IMG/VR virus record: IMGVR_UViG_3300044618_002100
Span: 1-26,013 of that record
DNA from: a virus
Length of the DNA: 26,013 nt
Reading direction: 5' to 3' (one strand)
Shown: in pieces, positions 1,926-26,013 of the stretch
Position numbering within the stretch: the stretch's first letter is position 1
Layout of the letters: each line of letters opens with the position of its first letter
Notes under the pieces: model-generated
Told to the model about the DNA's origin: nothing
Seen by the model: the letters and a program-made list of their open reading frames with translations, nothing else
The model's database searches: none
Program-made: the position numbers and the translations under genes

Positions 1926-1961
1926 CATTTTCATACTAACAATTTAAACACATAGACATTT

Positions 1962-2954: not shown

Positions 2955-2964
2955 TTAGTTTTCA

Positions 2965-3969: not shown

Positions 3970-3972
3970 AAA

Positions 3973-4425: not shown

Positions 4426-4452
4426 TATTTATCAAAAAACCAACAGACACTT

Positions 4453-5826: not shown

Positions 5827-5850
5827 TTATTAAAACACAAAGTTATACAC

Positions 5851-6798: not shown

Positions 6799-6817
6799 TT
6801 TACTATCTTTTTAAACT

Positions 6818-9250: not shown

Positions 9251-9265
9251 CAAATCCGATGTGTT

Positions 9266-9290
9266 ATCCCGAGCTAGGTCGGGATTTTTT
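9266..9290 (+). terminator. Rho-independent terminator after nrdA
   Basis: A perfect 7-bp stem pairs ATCCCGA (9266-9272) with TCGGGAT (9279-9285), with a 6-base loop, followed by TTTTT and TATTTT. It separates the replication/nucleotide module from the baseplate module and marks the likely end of the early or middle transcript. Confidence 0.88.
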
Positions 9291-9298
9291 ATTTTAAC

Positions 9299-9311
9299 TA
9301 TTTATCAAATA
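9299..9311. promoter_or_regulatory. Palindromic TATTTAT(C/G)AAATA site before the gp25 gene
   Basis: TATTT and AAATA arms flank ATC. The 17 bases from 9296 (aactatttatcaaataa) recur at 11698-11714 with one change (C to G). The site lies in the 46 bases between the nrdA terminator and the first baseplate gene. By position it is a candidate late promoter element or operator, though its function is unproven. Confidence 0.4.
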
Positions 9312-9336
9312 ACAGAGGACTTTATATTTATTTGAT

Positions 9337-9795
9337 ATGGCAAATGGAAAAACATATGGTATAGATTTTCCTTTCAGAACATCTCAATTTGGTAAATATT
9401 TAAGTTTATCTCAAACTGCGGATGATGAAATCAGGAATAACTTAGTGCATTTATTGTTGACTAGACGAGGTAGTAGATATTACCTACCTGATTTTGGAAG
9501 TAGATTGTATGATTATATTTTTGAGCCAATGGACAGTCTAACTTTTGATAGTATTGAGGCGGAGATTAGACAATCTTGTGAGAGATATATACCAAACCTT
9601 AAAATTTCAAAAATTTCAATTACTGATGCGTCAAATGATGATGTTGATTCTGCAACATCTGTTGAGGATTCTGGTGGGAGAACATATAATATGACAGGAA
9701 TGGGTAATAGAGAATACACCGCAAAAGTTAGAATTGATTACGTTATCACCGATAATGTATTTAACTCTAAAGATTTTGTAATTATTAATATATAA
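9337..9795 (+). CDS. 25: gp25-like baseplate wedge protein
   Basis: 152 residues against 132 for T4 gp25. gp25 is a conserved lysozyme-like-named but non-catalytic wedge component that joins the baseplate to the sheath's first ring in contractile tails and related injection systems. The family core is clear: helix LVHLLLTRRGSRYYLPDFGS (about 37-55) followed by RLYDYIFEPMD, with the conserved Glu-Pro at 63-64 (EPR-type motif). Then comes a helix and a C-terminal beta hairpin ending in the TAKVRIDYVI strand. An insertion of about 25 residues (SNDDVDSATSVEDSGG and after) accounts for the extra length. It is the first gene after the nrdA terminator and is followed after 4 bases by the gp6-like gene, as expected for a wedge operon. 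Confidence 0.88.
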   Translation: MANGKTYGIDFPFRTSQFGKYLSLSQTADDEIRNNLVHLLLTRRGSRYYLPDFGSRLYDYIFEPMDSLTFDSIEAEIRQSCERYIPNLKISKISITDASNDDVDSATSVEDSGGRTYNMTGMGNREYTAKVRIDYVITDNVFNSKDFVIINI

Positions 9796-9799
9796 TATT

Positions 9800-11638
9800 A
9801 TGGCTGAAAAAAGAATATCCTATACAGTTAGGGACTTCCAAGGATTAAGAACTGAACTTGTTAATTATGTTAAAACTTATTATCCTGAATTAATTGATAA
9901 TTTTAACGATGCTTCCGTGTTCTCTGTGTTTATGGATTTAAACGCTGCGGTTGCAGATAACTTACATTATCATATTGATAGAAGTGTTCAAGAAACTGTC
10001 CTACAGTTTGCTCAACAACGCTCGTCGGTTTATAATTTGGCTAGAACTTATGGTTTAAAAATTCCCGGACAAAGACCGTCAGTATCATTAGTTGAATTCT
10101 CCATTACAGTTCCTGCGGCTGGTGATAAAGATGATGAAAGATATGAAGGTATATTAAGGAGAGGTTCTCAGGTTGTTGGCGCGGGACAAGTATTTGAAAC
10201 CATTTATGATATTGATTTTACATCACCATATAATGCTCAAGGGTTTCCGAATAGGTTAAAAATTCCAAATTTTGATTCAAGAGGGAATCTTATTAACTAT
10301 ACAATTACTAAAAGAGAATTAGTTGTAAATGGTGTTACAAAAGTATTTAAACAAGTAATAACCCCAAATGATGTTAGACCATTCTATGAAATTTTCTTAC
10401 CTGGTAAAAATGTTTTAGGTATTACAAGTATCATCCAAAAAGATGGAACAAGTTATGCTAATGTCCCAAGTCCTCAAGAGTTCTTAGGTACTAATGGTAG
10501 ATGGTATGAGGTTGATGCGTTGGCACAAGATAGGGTTTTTATTGAAGACTCAACTAAACCATCAGACAAGCCTGGTGTTAAAATTGGTAAGTGGATACAA
10601 ACCAATAACCGATTTATCAGTGAGTTTACTCCTGAAGGATTTATGAAGTTAACATTTGGTGGTGGAACGGGTTCAGCTGAAGACCAACTTAGAGAATTTA
10701 CAAATTCAGGTAACTTACCTACAATTCAAAATTTTTTAAATAACTTTTCATTAGGGTCAACCTTAAAGGCGAATACCACTTTGTTTATACAATATCGTTC
10801 AGGTGGTGGAGTTGGAAGTAATTTAGGTGTGAATACGATTAATCAAATTGGAACTGTAATATTTGTTGTAAACGGACCTTCCGAAACTACAAATACTGCG
10901 GTTGTTAATTCATTGAGATGTAATAACGTAACTGCGGCTATTGGTGGGGCAGGACAACCAACGTTAGAAGAAGTTAGAAACTATGTGGCATTTAACTTTG
11001 CAAGCCAAAACAGAGCGGTAACTGTGAATGACTACGAAGCTTTAATTAGAAAGATGCCAAGTCAGTTTGGTGCACCTGCTAAAGTTGCGGTAATGGAAGA
11101 AGAGAATAAAATTAAAGTTAAGATTCTTTCATACGATACTAATGGGGCGTTAACTAATACGGTATCAAATGCGTTATTAGATAACTTAGCAACTTATTTA
11201 TCAAACTATAGAATGATTAATGATTATATCGCAATTGAAACTGCGGATGTTGTTGACCTAAGTATTGACCTATATGTTGTATTAGAGTCAACTCAAAATC
11301 AGGGTAATATTATTACATCAATAATTGACAAGGTGTCAAGTTATTTCAATCCATCAAATAGAGAACTTGGTCAGAACGTTAACATATCTGAGATTAATAG
11401 AATTTTACAATCCGAAAATGGTGTAATTTCAGTAACTCAAATTGATATTTTTAACGAGGTTGGAGGTGAGTATTCGTCATCTCAAACATCAATGGCTTAC
11501 TCAAATACAATAACTAGACAGATTGAACCTCAGGAAGGGACAATATTCGCATTGCCTAATCAAATATATCAAATTAGGTTCCCGACAAAGGACATTAGAG
11601 TGAGAGTTAAAAACTTCCAATCAGTTACACTTTCTTAA
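9800..11638 (+). CDS. 6: gp6-like baseplate wedge protein (baseplate J family)
   Basis: 612 residues against 660 for T4 gp6. It should form the dimers that knit the wedges into the baseplate ring and trigger sheath contraction. The N-terminal region has the family pattern: TVRDFQGLRTELVNYVKTYY (about 9-28), then FNDASVFSVFMDLNAAVADN, then a helix before LARTYGLKIPGQRPS. The C-terminal half holds a baseplate-J-type domain (about 370-480: TLEEVRNYVAFNFASQNRAV, then TVNDYEALIRKMPSQFG) and the final beta strands. It sits 4 bases after gp25. The order 25 then 6 is usual in T4-like wedge clusters. An 82-base gap with a regulatory-looking repeat follows. Confidence 0.88.
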   Translation: MAEKRISYTVRDFQGLRTELVNYVKTYYPELIDNFNDASVFSVFMDLNAAVADNLHYHIDRSVQETVLQFAQQRSSVYNLARTYGLKIPGQRPSVSLVEFSITVPAAGDKDDERYEGILRRGSQVVGAGQVFETIYDIDFTSPYNAQGFPNRLKIPNFDSRGNLINYTITKRELVVNGVTKVFKQVITPNDVRPFYEIFLPGKNVLGITSIIQKDGTSYANVPSPQEFLGTNGRWYEVDALAQDRVFIEDSTKPSDKPGVKIGKWIQTNNRFISEFTPEGFMKLTFGGGTGSAEDQLREFTNSGNLPTIQNFLNNFSLGSTLKANTTLFIQYRSGGGVGSNLGVNTINQIGTVIFVVNGPSETTNTAVVNSLRCNNVTAAIGGAGQPTLEEVRNYVAFNFASQNRAVTVNDYEALIRKMPSQFGAPAKVAVMEEENKIKVKILSYDTNGALTNTVSNALLDNLATYLSNYRMINDYIAIETADVVDLSIDLYVVLESTQNQGNIITSIIDKVSSYFNPSNRELGQNVNISEINRILQSENGVISVTQIDIFNEVGGEYSSSQTSMAYSNTITRQIEPQEGTIFALPNQIYQIRFPTKDIRVRVKNFQSVTLS

Positions 11639-11720: not shown

Positions 11721-14700
11721 ATGAGTAAAATTTATAGGATAAAAACAACTCCTGGAATTGACCAAAATTTAACAGTAAACATAAACCAAGATTTTGAAGA
11801 GATTGAATTACTATCTCTTAAAATAAGACAAGAAGATGTTTACCCAATCGGATGTGCCAATTATGGAGTCATTGCGGGAAGAGTATTTGTGAACGGGGGA
11901 TATGGACTACCAAAGGCTAAAGTATCTGTATTTATACCTCTTAGACCTGAAGATGAAGATAATCCTGTCTTAACTTCATACTATCCTTATAGAACTCTTG
12001 AGGATGTTAATGAAGATGGGTATAAATATAATTTGCTACCATACGTAGCTTCTTATAGTGGACACTCACCGACAGGGACATTCCCAACAAGAGAAGATGT
12101 ATTAAAAGACCCAGTTGCTTCGGAACTTTTTGAAAAGTATTACAAATATACTGTAACGACAAATGAAAGTGGAGACTATATGATTTATGGAGTCCCACTT
12201 GGGACTCACACGATAGTTTTAAATGTTGACTTATCTGATATTGGGGAGTTCTCAATGACTCCTCAAGATTTAATTAGAATTGGAAGAGGAACTGAGAATC
12301 AATTTAATGGTAGTTTCTTTAGGTCTTCAAATAACTTTAATGAACTTCCGCAGATTGTTTACGAAACTAAGATAGTACAGGTTAATGCATTTTGGGGTCA
12401 AGATGATACCTGTCAAGTAGGAATTACTCGGGCAGATTTTGATTTGAGTAGTGGGCAAAATAATATTACCATACAACCAACTGCGGTATTTATGGGTTCT
12501 ATATTTTCTTCTGAAACCACTAAAAAAGTTAAAAGAAGATGTAAAGTTAAATCTAAATTAGGTCAATTATGTCAATTAACTACAGGACCTGGACAGATTA
12601 TTGCTATTAGACAAACTATAGATATTGATGATGATGGGTATCCTGTCTTAGAAAAATATGATTTACCACAAAACGGTAAATTGATAGATGCTGACGGGAC
12701 TTGGGTAATTGAAGTCCCTATGAACTTGGACTATGTTTACACTAATGAAAATGGTGAAAGAGTATTAAGTGATGACCCTAAATTAGGAATTCCTACAAAT
12801 GGTAAATATAGATTTAAAATTAAATGGCAACAACCTGCGGGACTTACTGAAGAAAACAGAAGAGGGTATTTCTTAGTTCCAAACATTAAAGAACACGGAT
12901 GGACAAACAGTGGGGAAGACCCTCTATTACAGGATACTGAAACTTTTACTATTCAAACTAATGACCCAGTTATTAATATAGTCGGACAATCAGGTTATGT
13001 GTATCGTGTTAAGTCAAAAACAAATGTAACTGATTTTGTTGTTGAATTAGACGGTAACCCATACGTGGGTAACAAAAATGACATTTTATTAAATTCAAAT
13101 GATATTATTTCTATAACTCCCACATATGAGGATGATGAAGCAACATCTACTTGGGTGTTTGAAAAAATACCTTTGGTAAAATATAGATTAGAAAGGTCAT
13201 ATGCATTTAGTTTAAGTTGGTATGATTACAATGACCCTCAGGAGGCTATTGATTGTATAGACACGTTTTATTTTATGAAATATAATAAAGTATATACTGT
13301 GTCACAATTATTAGATAGATATACGTCAAGAAGATTTACTTGGAATACTTTACAGATAAAAAATATAAACACAGATGATTGTGATGAATCAACTAATAAA
13401 TTACCTGTTAATGATGTTCAGTATAGATTTGTTCCAATATTCATATTACTAAGTTTCTTTTTAACTCTTATGAAATTTTTGCTTAGGGCAATTATCATTC
13501 CTATGCATTTATTAGCGTTCTTATGGCCTGTAATCTTCTTGATTATGCAACTTGTGTGGGTTATACAAATGTTAATACACGGAATATGTAAGGCGTTAAA
13601 TAAAATTAGAGGATGGTTAGGTAAAGCAAAAAAAGAATGTGGTGAAAAACCAAAAAGAACAAAATATGCGGATAACTGGTTTAGAAATGTAAAACTACCT
13701 CTTTTATTATACACTGAAGATGGGTGTGAAAGATGTGATTGTAAAGATTCTGAAATTGACCTTAGCGGTAATGAAACTGCCGATGGGTTACAACAAAACG
13801 CAACAGACGCTAGAACAGGAACAATAAATAGTAGCCCACTTGCGGATTTTAATAGTGCAGATGCGTATACTGTAGGAGATTTCCAACAGGATTTTCCGTA
13901 TCTATGGGAAGGACCAAATACGACTACGATTTATGAAGACACTCCTAATGATGCTAATGGACCTGAATATCTTGATGTTTTGTTCACAAATTCATTAACA
14001 ATTGCTGAAAGATTAAATACTTTTAATTTAAAGGATAAATATTTTGATACTACAACTATTAACGGTGGTGTTGGTAGAAATCAAGTTAAGAGAACTGTAA
14101 CAGGTAATGGTAATATCTACCATTATGATAATACAATGGTCTTGGTTGTTGATGGTTCGGAATTAAGTAATTTTATTTCAGGACAACTAATTTCATTCAG
14201 CGACCCAACTTTATCTACCGACCCAAATCTTACAGGTGCGACTGTTAATACTGGAGGAACTAACTCAATAACAGGAACCCCGATTTCAAACGGGGCGCAA
14301 TGGACGGTTAATTATGCTTCACCATCAAACCCAACTGTGAGTAATTCAGTTACTTATACGATTAACTATAGTGGAGAATCAAAGGATTACTTAACTTTCC
14401 CTACTGATATGGAATATTTTCAGGTATTGACTGGATTAACGTTAGGTACATTTTCCGCTTTAACTGAGAATCATACAAATATCAACAGTAATTTCTTAAA
14501 TAGGTCTAATAAAACTGACTTCTTAAACAGGTATTTGAATAATCAAATGAGAGTTTATGATATTGTTGGGGATTATTTAGGTTCTAATGTTCAAAACCCA
14601 TGTAAAGATGCTTTATGGAGAAGTATTGGTTTGGCTCCAAACCCTGGATTTGACGCTTCCTCATCTTCAAACATTCAGACTCCTTTATTCTACTATGACG

Positions 14701-16976
14701 GAGCCCAAAGTTTAGGTATTATTATACTACAAAGAGGTGTTGACCCGCACTCACCAAAAGTACAACAAGAAATTGACTTATCAAGAATATTTGGATGGGC
14801 AAACTATGGGCAGGCAGGTTTGACAATAACAGGGGAGTTTAATTTAAATATACCAATACAGTCATCGTCAAGTTCATTAAAATTGCCAAGACATAATCAG
14901 TTTACTACAAATAATGCGACTGACTTTGGTAGTAGTATCTTCTTTCAAGGAACATTTGATGTTCAGGGAACATTCTCTTCTTACACAAGTAATTTATTAC
15001 GGTATTACTCAAGATTAGGGGAGAACGGAAATTCAACAACCGCATCTGTTCCATCCTCAAACTATTTAACAAAGGTCCAAACGGATAGCAATGCGGTTGC
15101 TAGTACGACTTCTTGCGGATGTGATACTTTTTACAATTTAAAACTTGGTTGGTGGTTTACTCAAGGAAATAATTCTCAATATGGTTATAGTGTTGGGGAG
15201 TATGTTGAAGGGGGAAGTTACGCTGATTTGGGAATGTCAAACTCTATATCTACTTTTTGTGGAGAATCGGTACCAAATGAAGTTTCGGCGTACGCATCAT
15301 ATATTTCAAATATATACCCTTCAAGTACCACAGTTCAAATGGTTAATCCAAGTAAACTAGTAATGAGGACTGACAGATTACCATCTTCCACGCAAATTCC
15401 TTCAGGTGATACTACAGGAAACGGAATTTTATTAATGCATCAGAATCCTTCATTTACAATTTATTTATTAGATGAATCTGGTTCAGCTCAAGCTTTAGGA
15501 AGTGCTCCTGAAGTGTATACCTTCACTGAAATAGAAACTGAGGATATACCATCACAATATATGAATGTGATTGAGTCACTTTCGGATTGTTCTAAAGCGG
15601 TTCCATTGGAATGTTATGTTGTTAATCCCGATAATACAGTATCTATTAAACCTTGTGATGAAAGTAACGGAACTTGTTGTGGTAAAAATTATAATACAGG
15701 TGGATTTAGGTCTTGGTTTAATTATGGGTTTGGATGTTATAATTTAGTGTCATTCCCAATTATTTCCATTGTAAAAGATTTCAATTTAATAATTGAATTT
15801 ATACAAAGATTAAAATTAAATATGGCGTTATGTTTTGATGTGTTTTCACACACATTTGGAAATGCTTGGATAAACGGGACATTATATGCTTTCCCATTCC
15901 AAATGAATACATTTTTTGACACTCAAAACAAACCTAACTACAATTATTGTAAAGAATTAATGTATTTTCATGACCCGACTAATAATTTTTATTATAGAAG
16001 TTCACCATATAATGATAATAATAATAAATTTATTGGTAGAGATGCAAATGAAAGAGCAAATGATAACGGAAATGAAAAACAATTAGGATTTCCAACAACT
16101 ATGATGGACTTGGGACCAAAAGTTCCTTACTTACAGGAAATAGTTTTCAGTGATGATTATGATGGATATATTGTTGATAAATTAGATTCAACATCATTCA
16201 AAAATGTTTCTGACATATTGAATGTTATGATTTTAAGTAGATTTGTTAATGAGAATTTTCTCAGTCTATTTTTACCTGGTCTTGGTAGTGGTTCTGACCC
16301 ATCAGTTGCGGGATTCTTTAGAAATAAAAGATGGAACCCAAGTGGAAATATATTATTCCCTGGAACTATTGATGGGGATTACTCACAAATGGCGTCAGTT
16401 AATTCTGAATTTGGAATTGCTGAATTCTCACCTGAGGGATATGATATTAATACGTCATTTAAAGTTATGAGAGATAACTCTAATTATGCTTATTTTGAAA
16501 TATTCTTTTCAGGTAATAATCAAGATAGAGATTACATCACACCAAGAAGAAAAATATGGAATGAGAATGCGTCCACGGCTCCTCTACCATCTGATTTTGG
16601 ATACATAAGTACATTTTCACAAGAAGTTCCATTCTATGAATGGGAATTTAAAACTACTAACTCAGGAACTATTTTCGGTAATCAGAATAACAATTGGGAT
16701 ACAAATGAAAGTGGATTTTTTAAATACAAATATCAATCAATTGATAGAATTTCACCGGCGTCCCATTCGGTAATTGTTGGGTCAAGTAATTCAAAATATT
16801 GGAAAGGGTTTATTTATAATGTAGATAGTAATGGAAATGCGACTGACTCAATACCAAGCGGGTTCCAAGATAAAAGACAGGTTAATAATCCATTTTTCTT
16901 TTATTTTGGATTAAAGAAAGGGGCTAGTGCGTATGACAAATTTAAAACTAAATATATAAATGAAACTGATTTATAA
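11721..16976 (+). CDS. Giant baseplate-region structural protein with internal hydrophobic segment, 1751 aa
   Basis: I do not recognise the whole protein. By position after gp25-gp6 it may replace T4 gp7, but at 1751 residues it is far longer than gp7 (about 1030) and shows no motif shared with it. Residues about 48-170 look like a carboxypeptidase-regulatory-type beta sandwich (GVIAGRVFVNGGYGLPKAKV, then NESGDYMIYGVPLGTHTIVL), split by an insert. Residues about 571-622 are strongly hydrophobic, enough for two membrane helices, and are followed by a basic stretch (KAKKECGEKPKRTKY) and a CERCDC cluster (C669, C672, C674). Other Cys groups (TSCGCD, TCCGK) occur further on. A second hydrophobic/amphipathic stretch around nt 15740-15850 (SFPIISIVKDFNLIIEFIQ) follows. 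The remainder is Asn/Ser/Gly/Thr-rich and probably beta-structured. The gene ends on the A of the next ATG (TAATG). Confidence 0.85.
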   Translation: MSKIYRIKTTPGIDQNLTVNINQDFEEIELLSLKIRQEDVYPIGCANYGVIAGRVFVNGGYGLPKAKVSVFIPLRPEDEDNPVLTSYYPYRTLEDVNEDGYKYNLLPYVASYSGHSPTGTFPTREDVLKDPVASELFEKYYKYTVTTNESGDYMIYGVPLGTHTIVLNVDLSDIGEFSMTPQDLIRIGRGTENQFNGSFFRSSNNFNELPQIVYETKIVQVNAFWGQDDTCQVGITRADFDLSSGQNNITIQPTAVFMGSIFSSETTKKVKRRCKVKSKLGQLCQLTTGPGQIIAIRQTIDIDDDGYPVLEKYDLPQNGKLIDADGTWVIEVPMNLDYVYTNENGERVLSDDPKLGIPTNGKYRFKIKWQQPAGLTEENRRGYFLVPNIKEHGWTNSGEDPLLQDTETFTIQTNDPVINIVGQSGYVYRVKSKTNVTDFVVELDGNPYVGNKNDILLNSNDIISITPTYEDDEATSTWVFEKIPLVKYRLERSYAFSLSWYDYNDPQEAIDCIDTFYFMKYNKVYTVSQLLDRYTSRRFTWNTLQIKNINTDDCDESTNKLPVNDVQYRFVPIFILLSFFLTLMKFLLRAIIIPMHLLAFLWPVIFLIMQLVWVIQMLIHGICKALNKIRGWLGKAKKECGEKPKRTKYADNWFRNVKLPLLLYTEDGCERCDCKDSEIDLSGNETADGLQQNATDARTGTINSSPLADFNSADAYTVGDFQQDFPYLWEGPNTTTIYEDTPNDANGPEYLDVLFTNSLTIAERLNTFNLKDKYFDTTTINGGVGRNQVKRTVTGNGNIYHYDNTMVLVVDGSELSNFISGQLISFSDPTLSTDPNLTGATVNTGGTNSITGTPISNGAQWTVNYASPSNPTVSNSVTYTINYSGESKDYLTFPTDMEYFQVLTGLTLGTFSALTENHTNINSNFLNRSNKTDFLNRYLNNQMRVYDIVGDYLGSNVQNPCKDALWRSIGLAPNPGFDASSSSNIQTPLFYYDGAQSLGIIILQRGVDPHSPKVQQEIDLSRIFGWANYGQAGLTITGEFNLNIPIQSSSSSLKLPRHNQFTTNNATDFGSSIFFQGTFDVQGTFSSYTSNLLRYYSRLGENGNSTTASVPSSNYLTKVQTDSNAVASTTSCGCDTFYNLKLGWWFTQGNNSQYGYSVGEYVEGGSYADLGMSNSISTFCGESVPNEVSAYASYISNIYPSSTTVQMVNPSKLVMRTDRLPSSTQIPSGDTTGNGILLMHQNPSFTIYLLDESGSAQALGSAPEVYTFTEIETEDIPSQYMNVIESLSDCSKAVPLECYVVNPDNTVSIKPCDESNGTCCGKNYNTGGFRSWFNYGFGCYNLVSFPIISIVKDFNLIIEFIQRLKLNMALCFDVFSHTFGNAWINGTLYAFPFQMNTFFDTQNKPNYNYCKELMYFHDPTNNFYYRSSPYNDNNNKFIGRDANERANDNGNEKQLGFPTTMMDLGPKVPYLQEIVFSDDYDGYIVDKLDSTSFKNVSDILNVMILSRFVNENFLSLFLPGLGSGSDPSVAGFFRNKRWNPSGNILFPGTIDGDYSQMASVNSEFGIAEFSPEGYDINTSFKVMRDNSNYAYFEIFFSGNNQDRDYITPRRKIWNENASTAPLPSDFGYISTFSQEVPFYEWEFKTTNSGTIFGNQNNNWDTNESGFFKYKYQSIDRISPASHSVIVGSSNSKYWKGFIYNVDSNGNATDSIPSGFQDKRQVNNPFFFYFGLKKGASAYDKFKTKYINETDL

Positions 16977-18730
16977 TGGGTGGTTATGAAAATATAGAGA
17001 TACTTTTAGGTTCTGCAAAATTTGCAACGAGTCCTAATCGTAATATGAGAATAACTCCATTTTTGGATGGTAAAATTCAGGAACTTGAAGAATATGATAG
17101 GTCGGCAATTATAAATTTACCCGAACTTTATAATTCCGAAAGGCAGGAGTGTTCAATATTTAGACCATCGTTTTCAACCAAAGTAATTTTTTACAACGCT
17201 TATACTGGGACAACTAATATCAATGGAACAAGTTATGGTCCGTTTTTAAATGAATTATTGTATACTGATGCTGAGAATTCAATAGTTGGAGGAACTCATC
17301 CAGGGACTTGGTATGGATATCCACCATATAAAGAATTTAATTTTTATAGAAACGATACTGATAGTGTTCATGTTGATTTTGCAACAAAATCTGCATTGAC
17401 TTACAATTGGGGATATTATCTAAGTTATGCTTTTGAAAATAACTCAGGAAAAACATTCCAACATTATTTCTCTCCAACCAATTCAATTACTTGGACTTGT
17501 TCCGAAGGGATTCCATTTATTATTTCAAGGCAAGAAATGAACGGAAGGGTTTTCATAGTGTTTAGATGTCCGATGAAACATAATTTGCTAAAAGGTGATT
17601 ATGTTGAAATTGAGTTCCAAGGTGGGTGGGACGGTATTAATGGGAATAAGTATTTCCAAGTTGATATGTTAGGAACTGAAAGTTATGGTAGTGATGAGAT
17701 AATTTTTAACATTCAGGATATCGGTTACGATAGTCCATTTTTCGCAAACTCCTCAATTGGATTATTTAAGAAGGTTGTTGATATTACCAACCCTGAGGAT
17801 ACTAAATCAATCTACTACGTTAGAAGACATAAAATACTGACTAACACACAGGATTCAATACCATTAAAAGCTGCGTTTTCACAGAACGGGTTCTTTAGTA
17901 AGAAAAAATTTTTGACGAGCGCTTTAACGCCTAATTATGTTTCTAGAGTTGTAGAACAAGACGGGTCTCAAAACTTCAACATTACTTTTTCTAAAGACAT
18001 TATAATATCAGGATATACTGATAATTTAAACCGACCATTAAGTGAACTTTATTTAACAATAATTAATAAGGGATATTTTGGATGGTTTAACCGACCAAGA
18101 CCCAACACTACAACTAATTCTGCCTTAAAACAAGGTCATAAATTTAACATATCGTTTACCTCTGGAAATTGGTGGGACGACAACAATTTGTTGAACGATA
18201 CTAATATTGGAACAAATTCATATACTAAAACATTTAATGGTGAAAATTATGAATTTTATTATAATCAAGATTTAGTAAGTGGTGATACTATAGATGGAGA
18301 TTTTTGTGAATATAATAGTTATTTGCAAGAAGAAAGTGTAATATCTGAATTTTATCATAAGTTTGAATTTAACAATTTGTTGTTTGATATAACATTTAGT
18401 GCGTCAACCAATAGAAACGGTTATTATTACAAACCACATAATGGTGTTACGATTAATGTATTTTCTGATTACATTGAGGAGAGTAATGTTTTAGGGATTT
18501 TAAATGTTCCACCATACGCCTTTTATTCTGAAACCTTGGGGACCCTAAGATGGAGAGACATTTACCCTTATGGTTATGTTGACTCAAACGGGAGAGGGGT
18601 TAATTTCCCATATATGAATAATGCTCATTATCCGTTACAGAATATAGATTTTAAAATATATCCTGAAAATAACATAAACGAATTTGTATTTGGTGCGATA
18701 CAATTACCTACAGTTGATGATTGTGAATAA
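16976..18730 (+). CDS. Unrecognised structural protein, 584 aa
   Basis: No family recognised. The protein is rich in Asn, Tyr, Phe and Gly with frequent short beta-strand patterns and no membrane segment, typical of baseplate or tail-periphery proteins. The N-terminus (GGYENIEILLGSAKFATSPN) and a region with FRCPMKHNLLKGDYVEIEFQ suggest a compact beta domain about residues 190-235. By order (after gp25, gp6 and a giant protein) it could stand in for T4 gp8, the next wedge protein, but no shared motif is visible. It starts at the TAATG overlap with the previous gene and overlaps the following one by 14 bases, so translation is probably coupled. Confidence 0.8.
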   Translation: MGGYENIEILLGSAKFATSPNRNMRITPFLDGKIQELEEYDRSAIINLPELYNSERQECSIFRPSFSTKVIFYNAYTGTTNINGTSYGPFLNELLYTDAENSIVGGTHPGTWYGYPPYKEFNFYRNDTDSVHVDFATKSALTYNWGYYLSYAFENNSGKTFQHYFSPTNSITWTCSEGIPFIISRQEMNGRVFIVFRCPMKHNLLKGDYVEIEFQGGWDGINGNKYFQVDMLGTESYGSDEIIFNIQDIGYDSPFFANSSIGLFKKVVDITNPEDTKSIYYVRRHKILTNTQDSIPLKAAFSQNGFFSKKKFLTSALTPNYVSRVVEQDGSQNFNITFSKDIIISGYTDNLNRPLSELYLTIINKGYFGWFNRPRPNTTTNSALKQGHKFNISFTSGNWWDDNNLLNDTNIGTNSYTKTFNGENYEFYYNQDLVSGDTIDGDFCEYNSYLQEESVISEFYHKFEFNNLLFDITFSASTNRNGYYYKPHNGVTINVFSDYIEESNVLGILNVPPYAFYSETLGTLRWRDIYPYGYVDSNGRGVNFPYMNNAHYPLQNIDFKIYPENNINEFVFGAIQLPTVDDCE

Positions 18731-19502
18731 ATTTAAAATATTAGTAAATGACAACGATAGGGAGATAGTAATTCCTGTTGAAACAAATGAAGATTATTTA
18801 GACCAACTAAATAATATTGAGAACTATGATGACCAAGTAGTTAAGAGGGTTATTAACCCCAACGAAGATTACGAAGTTGCTAGATTTACTCACGCTCAAC
18901 ATGATGAATCATTAAGGACTGACGTTAATTATCAATTTTTTTTCACACCTACAGGGTCAACCCCATCAAATATAAATTATGTTAATTCATATGTTAGTGA
19001 AGGGTTTACACCCCAACAAATTTATTATTTTTCAAATCCATTTAGAAACTCATTTTTTAAATTGGATTTTTACGATACCACTCAAGATACTAATCAAATT
19101 AATTACATTACAATAATATTACCTACAACTCAAGGAGAAACAGAACCTGCAGTTGTTGGAGTTAATAATGTGAATGTTAAAATACCAAAGTATAAATTAG
19201 ATTTTTTAGGTGATAAAGAAGGGTTTTTCCTATATTGGTTACGAAGTACCCAATACCTAAACATATCTACTTTTTATATGAGTGCAAAGTTTTTTGATGC
19301 AAAATTAGGGATTTTTGTAAAGTTTATGAATGCTCCACAAAATTCAATTGGAAGTGGGAATTCAAATTTTAATCCTTCAAATTATTTTTATTATAAGGTT
19401 GTTTTAGATTATGAAACTCTAACCTATAAAATTTTTACATTAGATGATGTGAGAGTTGGAGAAACAACCCCAATAACCTGGTATGAATATGTTAACCCAT
19501 AA
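18717..19502 (+). CDS. Unrecognised structural protein, about 261 aa
   Basis: No family recognised. I take the ATG at 18717 (MIVNKFKILVNDNDREIVIP), which overlaps the preceding gene by 14 bases. The frame is open back to a TTG at 18684, but that start would add 11 residues lying wholly inside the upstream gene, with no leader of the type seen here. A GTG at 18723 is a third option. The product is beta-rich with abundant Asn/Tyr/Phe. It begins with an acidic region (VETNEDYLDQLNNIENYDDQ), and its C-terminal half contains hydrophobic strands (FFLYWLRSTQYLNISTFYMS). The set of three neighbours with similar composition suggests one baseplate subassembly. It ends in a TAATG overlap with the next gene. 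Confidence 0.75.
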   Translation: MIVNKFKILVNDNDREIVIPVETNEDYLDQLNNIENYDDQVVKRVINPNEDYEVARFTHAQHDESLRTDVNYQFFFTPTGSTPSNINYVNSYVSEGFTPQQIYYFSNPFRNSFFKLDFYDTTQDTNQINYITIILPTTQGETEPAVVGVNNVNVKIPKYKLDFLGDKEGFFLYWLRSTQYLNISTFYMSAKFFDAKLGIFVKFMNAPQNSIGSGNSNFNPSNYFYYKVVLDYETLTYKIFTLDDVRVGETTPITWYEYVNP

Positions 19503-20656
19503 TGGATAATCAAAATAAATATTATTTTAAAATATCTCCTGAAGTTATATTGAATAAAATTTTCACTATTCAATATCCATCGGGAACAACAAGTAATCAG
19601 TTAGATGAAGACCCTTGTTGTGAAGTTACTGCAACAACTACTACGGTTGTTGATTATGGGTATGCTACAGTATATTCTTCTATGACTCAGTTGTTAAGTG
19701 GGGGAACTAATGGAGAATCAACTCTTACAGATTTATCGGTTCCAATTCTCTTGTTAGAAAGTGCTGTAGACTACGGACATTATTCAGTGTTTGATGGTGC
19801 GATTTCACAAAAAGAAGTGGTGTGTAATTTTATATTTTCCGCAAGTTCGGCCAATCCGTACACAGTAATTGTTTATAATACTTCCAATAATCTTTCAAAT
19901 TTTATACAACAAACAACTTTTCAAATTGACTGGGGGGATGGGTATGTTGAGGATATTAATACGTTTACACCTGAAAACTTAACACACACTTATAATAATT
20001 TTGGGGGACCTGTAACGTATATGATAAATTTAATACAGACGACTCCTTGGGGAATTAATTCTGTGGTTAAATATTTAGAAATACCTTATACGGGTGTGAC
20101 AGTGGATAATCCGAACGGTACTGCATATTTCACACCTATGAATGGTAATTGGGCTGATACATCAGTATCTTATGACTACATTTTTTCAGGAGATGCTGTA
20201 AATTTAGTAAGTGACCAAGTTAGTGGTAATTATATTGATACTCCTTTCTTAATCACTGCTCAAACATCATCAAGATTATCAGAGTTAAGAAGTTACGGAC
20301 CTCAAAAATACCGACAAACTCTAATAATCCAAAATGGTGAACCTTTTGGACAGATAACTGAAATAAATGAAAACTATACTGCTTATACAATCCAAAATAG
20401 TAGTTACGTTGATTTTACTGACGGAGCAACGATACAGGTGTTTGAATCATTTGGTTTAATTGATACTTGGTTAGTTCAAGAACCAATTGTGAAAGAAGAA
20501 GAATTAATTAATGTTGCATTTGAGCCCGAAATACAAACGAATGTATTTATTGATAGAGGAAAAAATTCAGGACTTGAGAAAACAGAGAGATTAAATGAGG
20601 TGGATAGTATTGGGGACTTGGAAAAATATGGATATAAATTTTTTAAATTTAGTTAA
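19502..20656 (+). CDS. Structural protein with PKD-like beta-sandwich domain, 384 aa
   Basis: Residues about 105-195 fit a PKD-type Ig-like domain: a strand ending FQIDWGDGYVEDI (about 140-152), then LTHTYNNFGGPVTYMINLIQ (160-179) and TPWG. The W-G-D-G and HTY signatures are the hallmarks of this fold. PKD domains usually mediate binding to proteins or carbohydrates, and in phage tails they decorate exposed surfaces. The N-terminal part (1-100) has a Thr-rich linker (TATTTTVVDYG) and a CC pair. The C-terminal 100 residues are acidic and end in a helix (RLNEVDSIGDLEKYGYKFF), perhaps for docking to the baseplate. TAATG overlap upstream; 2 bases separate it from the next ATG. The exact role is unknown. 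Confidence 0.8.
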   Translation: MDNQNKYYFKISPEVILNKIFTIQYPSGTTSNQLDEDPCCEVTATTTTVVDYGYATVYSSMTQLLSGGTNGESTLTDLSVPILLLESAVDYGHYSVFDGAISQKEVVCNFIFSASSANPYTVIVYNTSNNLSNFIQQTTFQIDWGDGYVEDINTFTPENLTHTYNNFGGPVTYMINLIQTTPWGINSVVKYLEIPYTGVTVDNPNGTAYFTPMNGNWADTSVSYDYIFSGDAVNLVSDQVSGNYIDTPFLITAQTSSRLSELRSYGPQKYRQTLIIQNGEPFGQITEINENYTAYTIQNSSYVDFTDGATIQVFESFGLIDTWLVQEPIVKEEELINVAFEPEIQTNVFIDRGKNSGLEKTERLNEVDSIGDLEKYGYKFFKFS

Positions 20657-20658
20657 AA

Positions 20659-21567
20659 ATGGCAGTAGGTTCATATGGAACAATTAGACCAGCGGATGTC
20701 TCACCGGCAGATATTGAGGTAATATTAAATTACACCCCATCAAGGGATGTGACTAGTAATTTTATTCTGAAAAAATTAGATGCGAGAACAATTATTAGAC
20801 CTTACTTTAATAATGGTGACACTGGAGGGAATCCTAATATTGAGATATTAGGGGGGTTATATAATCTAACATTACCATCGTCTGAATTTAATAAGTTAGG
20901 TATCTATACTTTATATATAAGACCTGCACAAATCAGAACTACAATAACGGATTGTGGAGTTTTGACCTCGTTACCAAACATTAAGGGGATTGTTATTGAC
21001 ATAAGTAATGTTCCTAATGAATTCCAAAATAAATTCATTCCTCAAGAGTTGGTTGGACATCGTGTTGAATACCTAAGAGATTCAGGAGCTAAAATACCTA
21101 ACTTTTTTAGATTAATCACATCAAATTTTTATTGTGAGGCGGTTACTGAAAATTTAGTTAACTCAGTACAAAAAGCTGTTAGATATAGATATACGGATTC
21201 TAAAACTAATTTGATGTTTTGTACTTTATCTCCATCTTCAGCACCTACTTCAAAACCAAATGCAACTCCATTTATCGGACAACCCGGACAAAATATAATA
21301 ATTAGTAATACATTTTTTAACCCAACTTCTGTTGAAGTTGAGATGGTTGAACACGATGCTTCCACATTGGCAATTGCCTTGTTTGGTAATCAAACAAAAT
21401 CTATTGATGATGGTATCTACACAATGTATGATAGTGGTAATAACATTTATAAACAATACAATTTGTTTGAAGTAAGAGACCAATATAATAAATTGTTATT
21501 TGAAGTTAGACAAGATAGAAATAATAACATTGACTTTAGTAAAAACTTTAACAATATAGTTCAGTAA
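20659..21567 (+). CDS. Unrecognised structural protein, 302 aa
   Basis: No family recognised. The sequence is largely beta with a few helices. An N-terminal strand-rich part (GSYGTIRPADVSPADIEVIL, then NFILKKLDARTIIRPYF) is followed by ELVGHRVEYLRDSGAKIPNF (about 130-150) and a central helix (AVTENLVNSVQKAVRYRY). The C-terminal 50 residues (FGNQTKSIDDGIYTMYDSG, then NLFEVRDQYNKLLFEVRQDR) look like an oligomerising or docking tail. There is no signal peptide or membrane segment. It starts 2 bases after the PKD-type gene and ends in a TAATG overlap with the large tail gene, so it belongs to the same coupled operon. A baseplate or fibre-attachment role is likely from position only. Confidence 0.8.
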   Translation: MAVGSYGTIRPADVSPADIEVILNYTPSRDVTSNFILKKLDARTIIRPYFNNGDTGGNPNIEILGGLYNLTLPSSEFNKLGIYTLYIRPAQIRTTITDCGVLTSLPNIKGIVIDISNVPNEFQNKFIPQELVGHRVEYLRDSGAKIPNFFRLITSNFYCEAVTENLVNSVQKAVRYRYTDSKTNLMFCTLSPSSAPTSKPNATPFIGQPGQNIIISNTFFNPTSVEVEMVEHDASTLAIALFGNQTKSIDDGIYTMYDSGNNIYKQYNLFEVRDQYNKLLFEVRQDRNNNIDFSKNFNNIVQ

Positions 21568-24512
21568 TGGCGAGAAAGTTATATAGATATCCACCGAGAC
21601 CATCTAGCGGAGCTGGCACGTTTTCGGATAATATTGTTGGATTCCAAGTGGTTGATGGGGGAGGTCTAACTCAAGGTAATTTTGAGTTTACGTCAAGTTT
21701 AACTGAAAAGGTTAACCGAACTTTCTCAATTGGAGCATTTTCATCACCAATAACATTAGATAATTTACAGATAGAGTCTGTTGAGGAAACTAAACGAATT
21801 GTTGCTAAAGAATTTGGAGTTTATCCAAATTTTGACTTATCTAATGTAACTAAGTTCTCAACATATGGACCATTAACCAAAAGATTTGCATCTTCAATTA
21901 CACATATTATTAATTATTTTCCTGCAGCAATTGAGTTATATGCTTTAGGGGGTGATTTTATATCGGGTTATACTGCGGTTAACATTGAGTTTGATATTGA
22001 AGAAGATACGTCAACTTTTAGTATTCCGATTGGTAAGATAAGTAATCCATTTGAAATTGATTTTACGTCTAATTCTACTAGAAATATTGAAACTAAAGAA
22101 TTTGAGGTTTCATATCTGAGAAATATGACATTAGAGTATAGTAAGTATGCGGTATATGTCAGAGATATCCAATACGAGATATTAAACATGACCCCAACTA
22201 CTAGTTTAACTAGTGGTTATCTTAATTTAACTGTTGCAGGTAATCCATTTTCAGGTGAAGTTAATTCTTACGAAACTCTAATAATTAAACCTAACGATTA
22301 TTACACCGAAGTTGCATTTACTGAACCGTTTGATGAAATTGAGAAATATCTGTTAAATAGATTAGTAACTCCCAAATACAGTGCTATTTTCCAAGTTCCA
22401 AAACAAAATGACAACGGCTCAACATTTGTTGGTACTGAAACTGCCACTTGGCCATTGTACGGAAAATGGAATTTGGATATTATTACAAATAATTTCACAT
22501 CGTATATTAACCAAATTAATACTATCGCTACAAATTTTGATAACTCAAAGACAAATTTAATTTCAAGATTTTTAGTAACGGACGCCTTTAAAGAATTTGA
22601 TACTTACGACCAAAGAGTTGATAAAGTATTACATATATATGGTAGAAGTTTTGATGAAGTTAAAAAATTCATTGACGCACTTGCGTATATGAATTCTGTA
22701 AATTATAATACTAAGAATGATATACCATCGGAACTACTTAAAAATTTGTCACAAACATTAGGATGGAATATAAACGTATCTCCTGTGACTGAAGAAGATT
22801 TTTTGAAGTCGGTATTTGGGAATGATACTAAGTCCCCATATCCTGGAATGTCAAGAAGTTTAACACCAAGTGAAATTAACTATCAATTTTATAAAAATTT
22901 AATTCTTAATTCGGCGTACCTATTTAAATCAAAAGGTACGAGAAGAGCGTTAGAATTCTTATTAAGATTGGTTGGAGCTCCTGAAGCGTTAATTGAGTTT
23001 AATGAGACAGTTTATCTTGCTGACCAAAAAATTAATATGAGAGATTTTAGAACTGAGTGGGCTAAAATATCTGGAGGAACTAAACTTGAAGAGACAATTA
23101 GTTTTAATCCTAATGACACATATTCAATTTTTGGACAAACTTTTTCAGGATATACTGCGACCACAAATGTTGTAACGGTAGATACTTTAGAAGGGGATTA
23201 CCCTATAGATGAAGAGGGATACCCAAAAACACCTGCAAACACTAGTTCATTCTTCTTTCAGTTAGGTGCTGGTTGGTATGAGTTAACACCCCCTCACCAA
23301 AGTAATCAGGATGTTAATAATACCGAATCTGTATTCACGGGGCAAAACACTAATGTTCAAACTGATTTTAAAAAATTCACTTATGGACAACAATATCTTG
23401 ATAGATTTAGAAATTTCCCATATATGGATTTAGGTTTTAAATTAACCAAAATTAGTGATAATAAAAAGAGTTGGTCGTTTAGAGATAAAACTAGAATATC
23501 TAATGATGGAGGGTTTAATGCATTCTACTATGCAAATGACGAGAGATTAGTATTGAACGTCAAAAACATTGATTTATTCATGAATCCTGCTGCGGGTCTT
23601 GTATTTGATGTGTGGACCATGTCATCAAAATATGGATATCCGATTTCAAATAATACAACACAACAAGTTTATGGTAATGGGATGAGGGTGACATCAAGTG
23701 TCCCACCTAATAAACAATCATTTTTTGAATTTGCTAACACATTTTGGCAAAATAAAGTAAATGTTGCAAACCGACAAATATCAAGTGGTTATGATGACGT
23801 GTCATTAATTTATTGGAGGTATTTGGAATCTGCAAATCAAGTTGGTATTCCTAATGATAATTTCACATATCAAAAATTAATTGATTATGTTAAAAATTTA
23901 GGTACGTATTGGCCAAAATTAGCGGAACAACTAATCCCATCGTCAACTATTTGGAATACGGGTATTAAATATAGTAACGCCCCATTCCAAAGACAAAAAC
24001 ACACATATAAGATTCCAAGAAGTTGTAGTGCGTTTATTCCTCCGACACTTTGTAAACCCTGTATTATTGATGGGGATTTATTTTTACATGGAGCATGTCA
24101 GGGAGTAACATCATTTCCAATTTTTCCTTGGTTAAATGGAACGACTAGTTACACAAGTTTCCAATCATTGTTAAATGAAATAATTTTTAATTACGTTTCT
24201 CAGAAAATATCGCAAGGGTATACATGTAATCAAAATTCTGTCTCAACAACATGGAAGATGATAGTGTCAATAGATGGTATTGATGTAATTTCAAGTATTA
24301 TATATAATGGCAATGGACCTACGGATACTCCAAGTAATTCGGATTGGACCAATGCTTTAAATCAATATTTACCGAATTTGGTTAGTTATGGTTATACTTT
24401 TGAGATTATTGATAGTAATGTTTTAATAAAGTATTTAGGATTTAGTCCTATTGCGAATAGTAGTAGTATTGAAATAAAATTAAACGTAGATTTTAGTATA
24501 AGTTGTAGTTAA
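21567..24512 (+). CDS. Large tail/baseplate protein with P2 gpI-like segment, 981 aa
   Basis: The N-terminal third (1-320) is beta-rich and unrecognised. Around residues 330-480 the pattern changes to helices: TYDQRVDKVLHIYGRSFDEV, then IPSELLKNLSQTLGWNI, then NLILNSAYLFKSKGTRRALEFLLRLVG split over about 442-468. The KGT-x-x-A-hydrophobic-E-hydrophobic-hydrophobic signature with a preceding short helix is characteristic of the P2 gpI tail family, which connects the baseplate to tail fibres. The assignment rests on this motif read by eye. The C-terminal region is Cys-rich (CSAFIPPTLCKPCI, near 820-835) and may bind metal. The last about 100 residues look like a separate globular domain. It is joined by TAATG at both ends, upstream to a structural gene and downstream to the repeat-bearing adhesin-like gene, as expected for a fibre-anchoring protein. 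Confidence 0.8.
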   Translation: MARKLYRYPPRPSSGAGTFSDNIVGFQVVDGGGLTQGNFEFTSSLTEKVNRTFSIGAFSSPITLDNLQIESVEETKRIVAKEFGVYPNFDLSNVTKFSTYGPLTKRFASSITHIINYFPAAIELYALGGDFISGYTAVNIEFDIEEDTSTFSIPIGKISNPFEIDFTSNSTRNIETKEFEVSYLRNMTLEYSKYAVYVRDIQYEILNMTPTTSLTSGYLNLTVAGNPFSGEVNSYETLIIKPNDYYTEVAFTEPFDEIEKYLLNRLVTPKYSAIFQVPKQNDNGSTFVGTETATWPLYGKWNLDIITNNFTSYINQINTIATNFDNSKTNLISRFLVTDAFKEFDTYDQRVDKVLHIYGRSFDEVKKFIDALAYMNSVNYNTKNDIPSELLKNLSQTLGWNINVSPVTEEDFLKSVFGNDTKSPYPGMSRSLTPSEINYQFYKNLILNSAYLFKSKGTRRALEFLLRLVGAPEALIEFNETVYLADQKINMRDFRTEWAKISGGTKLEETISFNPNDTYSIFGQTFSGYTATTNVVTVDTLEGDYPIDEEGYPKTPANTSSFFFQLGAGWYELTPPHQSNQDVNNTESVFTGQNTNVQTDFKKFTYGQQYLDRFRNFPYMDLGFKLTKISDNKKSWSFRDKTRISNDGGFNAFYYANDERLVLNVKNIDLFMNPAAGLVFDVWTMSSKYGYPISNNTTQQVYGNGMRVTSSVPPNKQSFFEFANTFWQNKVNVANRQISSGYDDVSLIYWRYLESANQVGIPNDNFTYQKLIDYVKNLGTYWPKLAEQLIPSSTIWNTGIKYSNAPFQRQKHTYKIPRSCSAFIPPTLCKPCIIDGDLFLHGACQGVTSFPIFPWLNGTTSYTSFQSLLNEIIFNYVSQKISQGYTCNQNSVSTTWKMIVSIDGIDVISSIIYNGNGPTDTPSNSDWTNALNQYLPNLVSYGYTFEIIDSNVLIKYLGFSPIANSSSIEIKLNVDFSISCS

Positions 24513-26013
24513 TGGCACAGAATGTAATTGGTTTAGAAATCCTTGGATTAACCGGATGTTGTGATGGTAATATTTTATGTAGTAGTGGTGCTGCGACACT
24601 TAACATATTAACTGGTAGTGGCCCATTTGTTGCACAAATTATTTCACCATATGTTGGAACTTCAGTTTTATTAGTTAGAGAGGCCTATACTTTCACAGGG
24701 TTATCTGCAGGTACATATACAATATTTGTTAGTGATTATGACACTCCAGTAAATAATACGGCAACAATTGATTTTTATATTTCATCAGGAATATCGGCAA
24801 ATACAATTGCTGTTGATAGCACTTGTGGTTTAAATAATGGGGAAATTGAAATCACATTATCACCAAATTTAGGTAATTCAAATACCTTTAGTTTGTACGA
24901 TGTAGATGATACTTTATTATCTGTAACACAATCAACAGACAATCCATACACAATATCAGGATTATCACCGAATGCTTATTATGTTATTATAGAAGATGGT
25001 GGAGGATGTAGTGCCAACACAGGAACTATGGTTATTGATAGTTCTTATGGTAGTTTATCAATTAACGCTGAAGTTACTAATACATCACCATGTGCTTTAA
25101 CCCCAAATGGTGAAATTTTATTAACACTATATAATGAAATACCTCCTGTTACAGTTACTTGGTCAACTAATGTTGGTGTACAGTCAAGTGATTATAATTT
25201 AACAGGATTAACAAATACAAATTATGTTGTAACAGTTAGTGATGGTTCAGGTTGTGAAGTTACTCAAACTGTTATAGTTGGGTTAGACGATAGATTAGGA
25301 ATTGCGGAATTTTCATTCACAAATCCATCTTGTTTTTTAAGTGATGGCGTTGTTAATATAACATTATCAGGAGGTTCTTTACCTATCACATATTACACGT
25401 CAAATGGCTCAACATTTACAAGTGGTAGAACGGTATCATTTACAGGTTTATCTTCAGGGGCGTTTAGTTTTACGGGAGTAAGTAGTACTTGTAATGTAAG
25501 TCAAACCTTTAATTTACAAACTGCAAATTCATTCGGAGTAATTTCGTCAAATAATGGATTTAGAGATTGTTCAAATAATAGTGGGTTTATATCAACCACT
25601 ATTAATGGGGGAGGTGCTCCGTTATCCGCATCCTGTGTTAGTAACAACGGATTTGTTTCTACCCAATCCAATTTACCTGCAAATTCTACAATTACTTTTG
25701 GTAGTTTAACTGCTGGGACGTATACAATTAGTATCACTGATGCGACATCCGCCTGTACTTACACTGATACTATAACTTTAACTCAAGATTTAGGATTTGA
25801 TTTTGAACTTATACCTACTAACACCACTTGTGGAATTAATAATGGGACCTGTTTTATTGATATTACAACAACAATAACTGGACAAACATTCACTTTGGGG
25901 TTATCTAACGGAGCGACTATAAGAAATTTAACAACTGATTACACCTTACAAAATATCCCACAAGGAAGTTACGGGGTAACGTTAACAAATAATTCAGGTT
26001 GTTCTATAACTAA
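24512..26013 (+). CDS. Tail fibre/adhesin-like protein with SprB-like repeats (partial, 3' end outside window)
   Basis: The frame is open for 500 codons from the ATG at 24512 and runs off the right edge; the TAA at 26011-26013 is out of frame. After an N-terminal part that itself looks like a divergent unit (1-96, ending FTGLSAGTYTIFVSD), there are five units of about 70-90 residues. Each has an opening Cys near an NNG or SDG turn, a GL/NIP-x-G-x-Y-x-V-x-hydrophobic core and a closing Cys after a D or N-x-SGC turn. The pattern resembles SprB-type repeats of flavobacterial gliding adhesins. Composition is Ser/Thr/Asn/Gly-rich with few charges, as in extracellular fibres. There is no signal peptide, consistent with assembly on the virion. 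A role in host attachment is inferred from content and from its place at the end of the tail cluster. Confidence 0.8.
   Translation, partial: MAQNVIGLEILGLTGCCDGNILCSSGAATLNILTGSGPFVAQIISPYVGTSVLLVREAYTFTGLSAGTYTIFVSDYDTPVNNTATIDFYISSGISANTIAVDSTCGLNNGEIEITLSPNLGNSNTFSLYDVDDTLLSVTQSTDNPYTISGLSPNAYYVIIEDGGGCSANTGTMVIDSSYGSLSINAEVTNTSPCALTPNGEILLTLYNEIPPVTVTWSTNVGVQSSDYNLTGLTNTNYVVTVSDGSGCEVTQTVIVGLDDRLGIAEFSFTNPSCFLSDGVVNITLSGGSLPITYYTSNGSTFTSGRTVSFTGLSSGAFSFTGVSSTCNVSQTFNLQTANSFGVISSNNGFRDCSNNSGFISTTINGGGAPLSASCVSNNGFVSTQSNLPANSTITFGSLTAGTYTISITDATSACTYTDTITLTQDLGFDFELIPTNTTCGINNGTCFIDITTTITGQTFTLGLSNGATIRNLTTDYTLQNIPQGSYGVTLTNNSGCSIT
24800..26013 (+). repeat. Tandem SprB-like protein repeats, five units
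   Basis: Approximate unit boundaries by residue are 97-180, 182-262, 264-342, 343-429 and 430-500 (cut by the window edge). Paired cysteines mark them: C105/C166, C194/C248, C274/C327, C353/C415 and C440/C497, spaced 53-62 residues apart. Shared features are an NNG/PNG/SDG turn two to seven residues after the first Cys and a GL(S/T)xxxYxVxVxDxxGC-like end, in the last unit NIPQGSYGVTLTNNSGC. The units are diverged in DNA sequence, so they are old repeats and not recent duplications. Confidence 0.75.

Follow-up and report, generated by a model that had tools for sequence, protein, structure and literature searches.

The window analyzed here, the whole of a 26,013-base virus fragment from IMG/VR (IMGVR_UViG_3300044618_002100) with 17 genes, ends within a gene whose product consists of tandem domains resembling the SprB repeat (Pfam PF13573). 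We consider that this gene probably encodes a fixed-length tail arm of a contractile-tailed phage, in which a stalk of SprB-type domains would display variable recognition tips. The seven domains of the complete stalk would serve as a Cys-stabilized, semirigid spacer keeping recognition modules at a distance from the baseplate; a further domain, shared with the neighboring tail protein, would join the arm to that protein or to the next fiber subunit; and the host would be recognized chiefly by the C-terminal tips or by the products of separate genes downstream. The SprB-type domains themselves were probably derived from the surface-protein repertoire of Bacteroidota hosts. To our knowledge, the recognition proteins in the tails of large uncultured Bacteroidota phages have received little characterization.

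The seven-unit array and its relatives

With a unit profile trained on 329 units, from which the window's own cluster had been left out, six units were found in the window's reading frame (numbered from 0; coordinates are given in the table below), each with an E value between 2e-11 and 4e-17 at Z=1; the total for the frame amounted to 212.7 bits, versus -14.5 for the best of 2,000 shuffles. A Cys pair is present in units 1 to 5 and is missing in that form from unit 0, which bears out the original prediction, made from the letters of the window, of at least five tandem units with such a pair. Within the family, unit 0 holds 1 Cys in 76 of 104 arms, and units 2 to 5 hold exactly 2 in 96 to 103 of the 104. 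The complete gene, which the prediction had suggested obtaining from the contig, was recovered from four near-identical related contigs (L002, L003, L004, and L006), where it is identical and encodes 1,066 amino acids (aa): seven units at residues 5 to 584, a nonunit domain (the shared domain) at 583 to 719, and then Thr/Pro-rich linkers, in which two small Cys-containing segments were recognized by eye. The window stops short of unit 6, the shared domain, and the tip, all of which are present, for example, in L004.

By profile-profile comparison, the seven units are mutually homologous (all 21 pairs at E ≤ 7e-5), and the following domain is matched by none of them (E of 0.12 or worse); the profile used here, and for the hhalign comparisons below, included one row from contig L025 that is probably unrelated. 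Tandem Repeats Finder detected no DNA repeat within the arm gene, and the units are diverged at the protein level. An AlphaFold model of the arm, built on an alignment of 12 sequences including one arm-less row (L025), has a mean predicted local distance difference test score (pLDDT) of 58 and a predicted template modeling score of 0.27, with disordered linkers and with beta sandwiches that, after a weaker first unit, mostly reach a pLDDT of ~70 to 83.

Assignment to the SprB family was assessed against the curated PF13573 cutoff of 28 bits, with E ≤ 1.5e-6 used as an approximation. At this threshold, the family was matched by 46 of 48 arm representatives (best E, 6.5e-31); the two misses were the window's copy and one other. 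The former scored 26.7 bits for its 500-aa part and 24.4 bits at full length, just under the cutoff, and its first 715 aa gave no PF13573 match at E ≤ 1.5e-6; in a six-frame scan, two near-identical records reached 31.1 bits. Other Pfam matches among the 48 representatives were to BiPBP_C (in 11) and Y_Y_Y (in 10). Three Hoc-like families in PHROGs matched 3, 19, and 20 of the 48, with a best E value of 3.9e-18, weaker than that for SprB, and a "virion structural protein" family matched 20; the window's copy matched no Hoc-like PHROG at E ≤ 0.001. An SprB-less outcome, named beforehand as refuting, did not occur, yet 19 to 20 of the 48 representatives also match Hoc-like families. Judged by sequence, and in agreement with the original prediction, we identify the units as SprB-type immunoglobulin (Ig)-like domains, with a likeness to SprB, as gauged by the best Pfam E value, that exceeds a shared Ig fold.

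When six phage arms were used to search bacterial genomes, 107 relatives were obtained, and 78 of the best 80 carry Bacteroidota names, the remaining two being an unnamed bacterium and a Sphingomonadales metagenome-assembled genome. The closest bacterial relatives found are Bacteroidota proteins, in support of the original prediction. The locus titled Sphingomonadales (L189), which has SprB-like units, may be a misassigned contig. At least 2 Cys were counted in 1,418 of 1,490 bacterial units. Smaller genes with one or two SprB-like units were also seen in the same phages (e.g., L017:20882-21862 and 21876-22871; L034:532-2988), and the SprB-like module is thus predicted to be used in several of their proteins.

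The number of units was examined in two sets of loci. The first, the tail-gene sample, consists of 80 loci picked by the upstream gene for a 981-aa tail-cluster protein alone, with SprB disregarded, and represents the best 80 of at least 589 relatives. Open reading frames (ORFs) were called from ATG only, L237 (with a GTG start) and L100 being added afterwards, and ORFs with fewer than three units were left out of the 67-ORF set. All 70 complete arm neighbors of the 981-aa gene (69 ATG called and one GTG started) have seven units; among the remaining loci, one truncated gene already has seven, eight truncated genes have between one and five, and in one case the contig stops short of the gene. 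The other set, whose first 80 loci were picked by an SprB-like motif (best matches only, some contigs recurring), showed a seven-unit frame in 103 of 106 loci, several from the same contigs, the exceptions being two cut contigs (L029 and L030) and one real exception, L025, which has no unit. Arm matches totaled 303.

Each unit also keeps its position. When entire sequence clusters were excluded from training, the right place was assigned to 726 of 756 units, although leaving out the largest cluster (98 of 108) leaves a training set of 10 sequences; 28 of the 30 misassignments concern units 4 and 5. In a tree built from 63 phage and 80 bacterial units, the units group by position, with 12 label changes versus a shuffled mean of 61; in this 82-column tree, many forks are unresolved, and one phage origin of the units cannot be told from several. 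Because of the fixed number and the positional identity of the units, we read the array as old and constrained rather than as a freely changing adhesin. Gain or loss of units as a host-range switch was considered and set aside, the number being always seven where a complete array of at least three units follows the tail gene.

The shared domain, the tips, and competing explanations

Homology links the domain after the units to the C terminus of the 981-aa protein encoded directly upstream (hhalign E of 1.9e-11 across 109 columns; two other regions of the 981-aa protein served as negative controls). The relationship was found from either side: with a profile built solely on the arm domain, 8 of 16 tail proteins are detected (E of 4e-11 to 1e-4), and with one built solely on the tail domain, 4 of 15 arms are detected (E of 6e-9 to 6e-8). 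According to a joint profile, the domain is confined to these two genes in the window, in 15 phage loci, and in a stretch of a megaphage; it was detected in 103 of the 104 distinct full-length arms (all but the short one of L033) and in 92 of 93 arms outside the profile's training set, and none was found in 80 bacterial SprB loci. We infer that it may be a docking or connector domain. L025 had been regarded as a case in which the shared domain was kept with a different arm; this was rejected, since L025 had contributed to training and no match was found in that gene with a profile from which L025 had been left out.

Downstream of the shared domain, the arms differ. The C terminus extends by more than 30 aa in 32 of 103 arms (median, 306 aa), with Thr/Pro runs in 23 of the 32, and it is the least conserved part in all pairs having one: 58 to 80% identity versus 78 to 85% for the units within the window's group, 30 to 54% versus 75 to 81% among L017, L018, L020, and L028, and 28% versus 44% between L017 and L022. 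In L018 and L020, the tail proteins and shared domains are 100% identical (rounded) and the units are 99% identical, whereas the C termini, of 490 and 309 aa, share 65% identity over aligned columns. The DNA of the two, 96.7% identical over 15.2 kb, breaks ~30 nucleotides (nt) after the shared domain; beyond an indel, a stretch of 423 nt again matches at 95%, and at an E value of 1e-10 no DNA of L020 matches the remainder of the L018 gene. By eye, the last part of L018 resembles L028 and that of L020 resembles L017. The gene after the arm has diverged as well (75 to 80%), and then identity returns to 92 to 97%. A diversity-generating retroelement was also considered; no reverse transcriptase family match was obtained in nine phage records of 57 to 326 kb, which may be incomplete.

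Several observations weigh against an arm with variable tips. Most arms (71 of 103) end within 30 aa past the shared domain, so that their tip, if any, must be another gene. A Thr/Pro-rich protein is indeed encoded within 5 kb downstream at 40 of 47 testable tip-less loci, but the same holds at 12 of 23 loci with an extended arm, the criterion being ad hoc and 33 of 103 loci having been dropped from the comparison. Tip exchange was observed in one of the two pairs compared; the other, L101 and L103, has no break in identity in the 13.1 kb compared. The 981-aa protein is better conserved than either the units or the shared domain (e.g., 55% versus 35% and 32%, respectively, between L004 and L014), a pattern that an inert scaffold need not show, and in most pairs conservation of the shared domain does not exceed that of the units. 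L025 keeps a homologue of the 981-aa gene followed by a gene without units or, by the profile from which it was left out, the shared domain, from which we conclude that the arm gene may be replaceable. The baseplate placement of the 981-aa protein, which matches no family or fold, rests on its position, and the arm itself is a putative virion protein and a candidate for binding cells. In its favor stands position: the arm gene is encoded with baseplate genes, where a fiber gene would be. L025 and the weaker conservation of the units relative to the tail protein slightly lowered our confidence in a stalk with tips, which we nevertheless favor, and slightly raised that in adhesive units, the main rival.

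Three side observations concern this region. At L025:12949-15735, the gene after the 981-aa homologue is a different, Cys-rich one without any SprB-type unit. A conserved gene of ~325 aa, starting like ...VTAQPDVPYFHWQ, lies near the fiber genes (L012:21082, L013:20753, L017:19808, L018:21217, and L022:16847), and the one copy scanned (L017) had no Pfam match. Downstream Gly-Thr-Ser-rich, collagen-like repeat frames were noted at L015:16500-19217 and L237:12450-12998, where long open frames occur in other phases too.

A tentative alternative, which we hold to be the less probable one, is that the SprB-type units are themselves adhesive, binding glycans weakly and multivalently on the host or on particles that it inhabits, or mimicking host adhesins. 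By analogy, this would follow proposals for the Hoc and BACON/PKD Ig domains of phages, and one study reports that gut phages, many of them with predicted Bacteroidota hosts, carry Ig-like proteins that confer epithelial adherence (PMC13370021). It would accommodate the faster evolution of the units relative to the tail protein, the lack of an own tip in 71 of 103 arms, and the Hoc-like matches of 19 to 20 of the 48 representatives, as well as the matches of the arm profile among PDB sequences, which are to the grappling hook protein GhpA, to RemZ, and to phage whisker or decoration proteins. Against it, the fixed number and order of the units look structural, and the C terminus varies more than the units in all pairs having one; the proposal in the original prediction that the units serve attachment or mimicry tied to gliding is not supported, for the same reasons.

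We regard as unlikely a purely structural tail component (a baseplate or fiber connector) with no adhesive role, in which the SprB likeness would merely reflect a shared Ig fold. Its strict seven-unit architecture and the domain common to arm and tail protein would suit such a component, but the sequence match to SprB goes beyond the fold, the same Cys pattern is seen in bacterial units, and the fiber and spike genes of a related phage, Flavobacterium phage vB_FspM_immuto, come after its baseplate genes.

It is very doubtful that a widespread class of environmental Bacteroidota phages fixed seven host moving-adhesin modules into a tail arm that engages SprB/RemA-type filaments or shared glycans, so that a bound phage would ride the gliding conveyor of the host over the cell to the site where it injects. 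The background for this idea is that mutations in gliding genes give flavobacterial phage resistance, with SprB and RemA as possible receptors (PMC13288928), and phage receptors in flavobacteria are likely part of the gliding machinery (PMC7345892). A set of 119 genomes, some possibly incomplete, of the class to which a Flavobacterium genome belongs was surveyed. SprB repeats exceeded the cutoff in 102 of the 119, and at least 50 SprB matches were present in 62 (our own count; 57 scored at most). GldB exceeded its cutoff in 91 and had any match in 113; four SprB-rich genomes had no GldB match, and GldB exceeded its cutoff in 12 of the 17 genomes without SprB. SprB repeats are also reported from proteins predicted to be secreted by the type 9 system and encoded next to polymorphic toxins (PMC7073777). 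Since the repeats are widespread and also occur beside toxins, we take SprB-type units, as sequence features, to point to Bacteroidota surface proteins in general; as a marker of gliding they fail, and the link to gliding drawn in the original prediction is not supported.

Nor does the arm look like cargo of the type 9 secretion system, a candidate that was rejected because no secretion signals were seen. In agreement with the prediction, a signal peptide-like N terminus was not evident (K or R in the first 12 residues in 3 of 104 arms, a crude test). No C-terminal type 9 sorting domain was found in seven proteins scanned whole or to the contig end; the sorting-domain matches in those seven lie inside the unit array.

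Least probable of all is a Hoc-like head decoration or neck whisker protein that happens to be encoded in the tail cluster: the Hoc-like PHROG matches and the best PDB sequence match of the arm profile, the neck whisker protein gp24 (E of 2.2e-5), speak for it, and its constant position next to the 981-aa tail-cluster protein, with which it has a domain in common, speaks against it.

If the arm is what we propose, a constant seven-domain arm beside a conserved tail gene provides a marker for variable tips, which are candidate host-range determinants, in hundreds of phage contigs (at least 589 tail-gene matches and the 303 arm matches). It also makes testable whether phages that depend on gliding genes of the host for infection use host-type adhesin domains to touch the adhesin layer.

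The window and its phage

The window encodes a gp32-like single-stranded-DNA-binding protein, a 5'-3' exonuclease, a DnaB helicase, and both ribonucleotide reductase subunits, as well as a RecA-like recombinase with a weak Pfam match. By blastp against three stretches of the immuto genome, 8 of the 17 genes have matches of 25 to 41% identity, the weak member being the gp32-like protein (E of 1.3e-4). These matches form two blocks: the genes for single-stranded-DNA-binding protein, recombinase, exonuclease, helicase, reductase beta, and reductase alpha, in the same order, and the adjacent gp25 and baseplate-J genes. Positions 1041 to 11638, with replication, nucleotide, and baseplate genes, are thus distantly collinear with immuto. 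In addition, the 981-aa protein has a local match to immuto35A_161 (184 residues, 27%, E of 1.1e-6), the ninth in all, which was not reproduced by the 981-aa family profile or by phmmer. An SprB search of the whole immuto genome, in which tail fiber and spike genes lie downstream of the baseplate genes, came back empty, and the arm is therefore not common to all relatives.

Among the records listed, the large reductase subunit is nearest to those of Cellulophaga and Tenacibaculum phages (40 to 41%) and of megaphage LR756502; the helicase and baseplate-J searches also listed a metagenomic phage and a Microcystis phage near immuto. From these sequence comparisons, the window is assigned to a contractile-tail phage distantly collinear with immuto, and its host is likely, though not proven, to belong to the Bacteroidota. 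No prophage or host contig with the 981-aa tail gene was found in bacterial genome contigs or in the 80 bacterial SprB loci. An A-rich tandem repeat (2.1 copies of ~22 bases) was observed at positions 3928 to 3973, where the exonuclease gene meets the gene after it.

The features bearing on the tail are collected below. The 1,751-, 584-, 272-, and 384-aa proteins of the tail cluster had no match in a Pfam scan, and the 302-aa protein, scanned with PHROGs only, had a weak match there. The 981-aa protein has no convincing Pfam match, its model is of low confidence except for two stretches (mean pLDDT, 46), and its fold has no PDB match at E ≤ 0.001. The arm gene had been called the last gene of the baseplate/tail cluster: in the window it does stand at the end of that cluster, but in complete relatives further genes follow.

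Tail-related features of the window (positions 1 to 26,013)
Feature	Position	Strand	Remarks
Baseplate wedge gp25 homologue	9337..9795	+	PF04965, E 1.1e-11; matches immuto baseplate assembly gene
Baseplate J-like protein	9800..11638	+	PF04865, E 1.7e-7; matches immuto baseplate wedge gene
Tail-cluster genes (1,751, 584, 272, 384, and 302 aa), from baseplate genes to 981-aa gene	11721..21567	+	
981-aa tail-cluster protein, directly upstream of arm	21567..24512	+	C terminus (~845-981) homologous to postunit arm domain
SprB-type arm gene, 5' part (500 of 1,066 aa)	24512..26013	+	Runs off contig; frame 24512-26011 open
Unit 0, N-terminal, most diverged	24521..24784	+	Residues 4-91; without regular Cys pair; unit profile
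Unit 1	24773..25048	+	Residues 88-179; C105/C166; unit profile
Unit 2	25043..25294	+	Residues 178-261; C194/C248; unit profile
Unit 3	25286..25531	+	Residues 259-340; C274/C327; best Pfam SprB stretch, residues 268-301
Unit 4	25514..25795	+	Residues 335-428; C353/C415; unit profile
Unit 5, cut by contig end	25781..26011	+	Residues 424-500; C440/C497; unit profile

Comparison with known systems

We found no description of SprB-type domains in a phage tail in a literature search that left most subscription papers and preprints outside its reach, and none is given in the parts available of PMC13288928, PMC7345892, PMC7073777, PMC10994853, and PMC13370021. Very probably, the family is already in a database under the name "SprB repeat," and no description of it was found in the literature searched.

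Among solved structures, the best matches to the arm by Foldseek are to fragments of GhpA of Aureispira, a member of the Bacteroidota (E of 4e-15, 17% identity), which also matches by sequence profile over 450 residues (E of 1.1e-4). GhpA differs in being a cellular protein, of 5,898 aa in the PDB record, and the whole-chain TM-scores are low (0.12 to 0.21). VIA-align placed FN3/Ig multidomain receptors first (Z of ~10), with GhpA not among the 50 best rows, a result that, for a predicted model, suggests a common Ig-type fold only. The Hoc-like and BACON/PKD Ig adhesins are likewise phage-displayed Ig-like arrays, many of Bacteroidota hosts, but belong to Ig families other than that of the arm, and the main text of PMC13370021 does not mention SprB.

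In LR756502.1, the 642-kb genome of an uncultured metagenomic megaphage, 14 SprB matches lie in one 1,675-aa frame (515422-518520); with 13 units by our own unit profile and no 981-aa homologue in the 13.6 kb examined, it differs from the arm and is a separate architecture built from the same SprB module. The "SprB repeat" protein A0A6J5LD72 of an uncultured Caudovirales phage (BFVD/UniProt; 714 aa), with a Foldseek E value of 5.6e-50 and 29% identity over 726 columns, very probably belongs to the same family as the arm, already named after SprB in the database.

For the signal peptide and C-terminal sorting domain that go with type 9 secretion of F. johnsoniae SprB, no counterpart was seen in the phage arms examined. 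Bacteroidota SprB-repeat loci vary in unit number, from 4 to 66 in the 80 loci, whereas the arm has seven; the arm also differs in the extra domain that follows its units, not found in those 80 loci, and in its lack of any sign of a secretion signal. In the sequence, length, and Cys pair of the single unit, the SprB-repeat proteins of the Bacteroidota (PF13573, named after the F. johnsoniae protein) are as in the phage arm.

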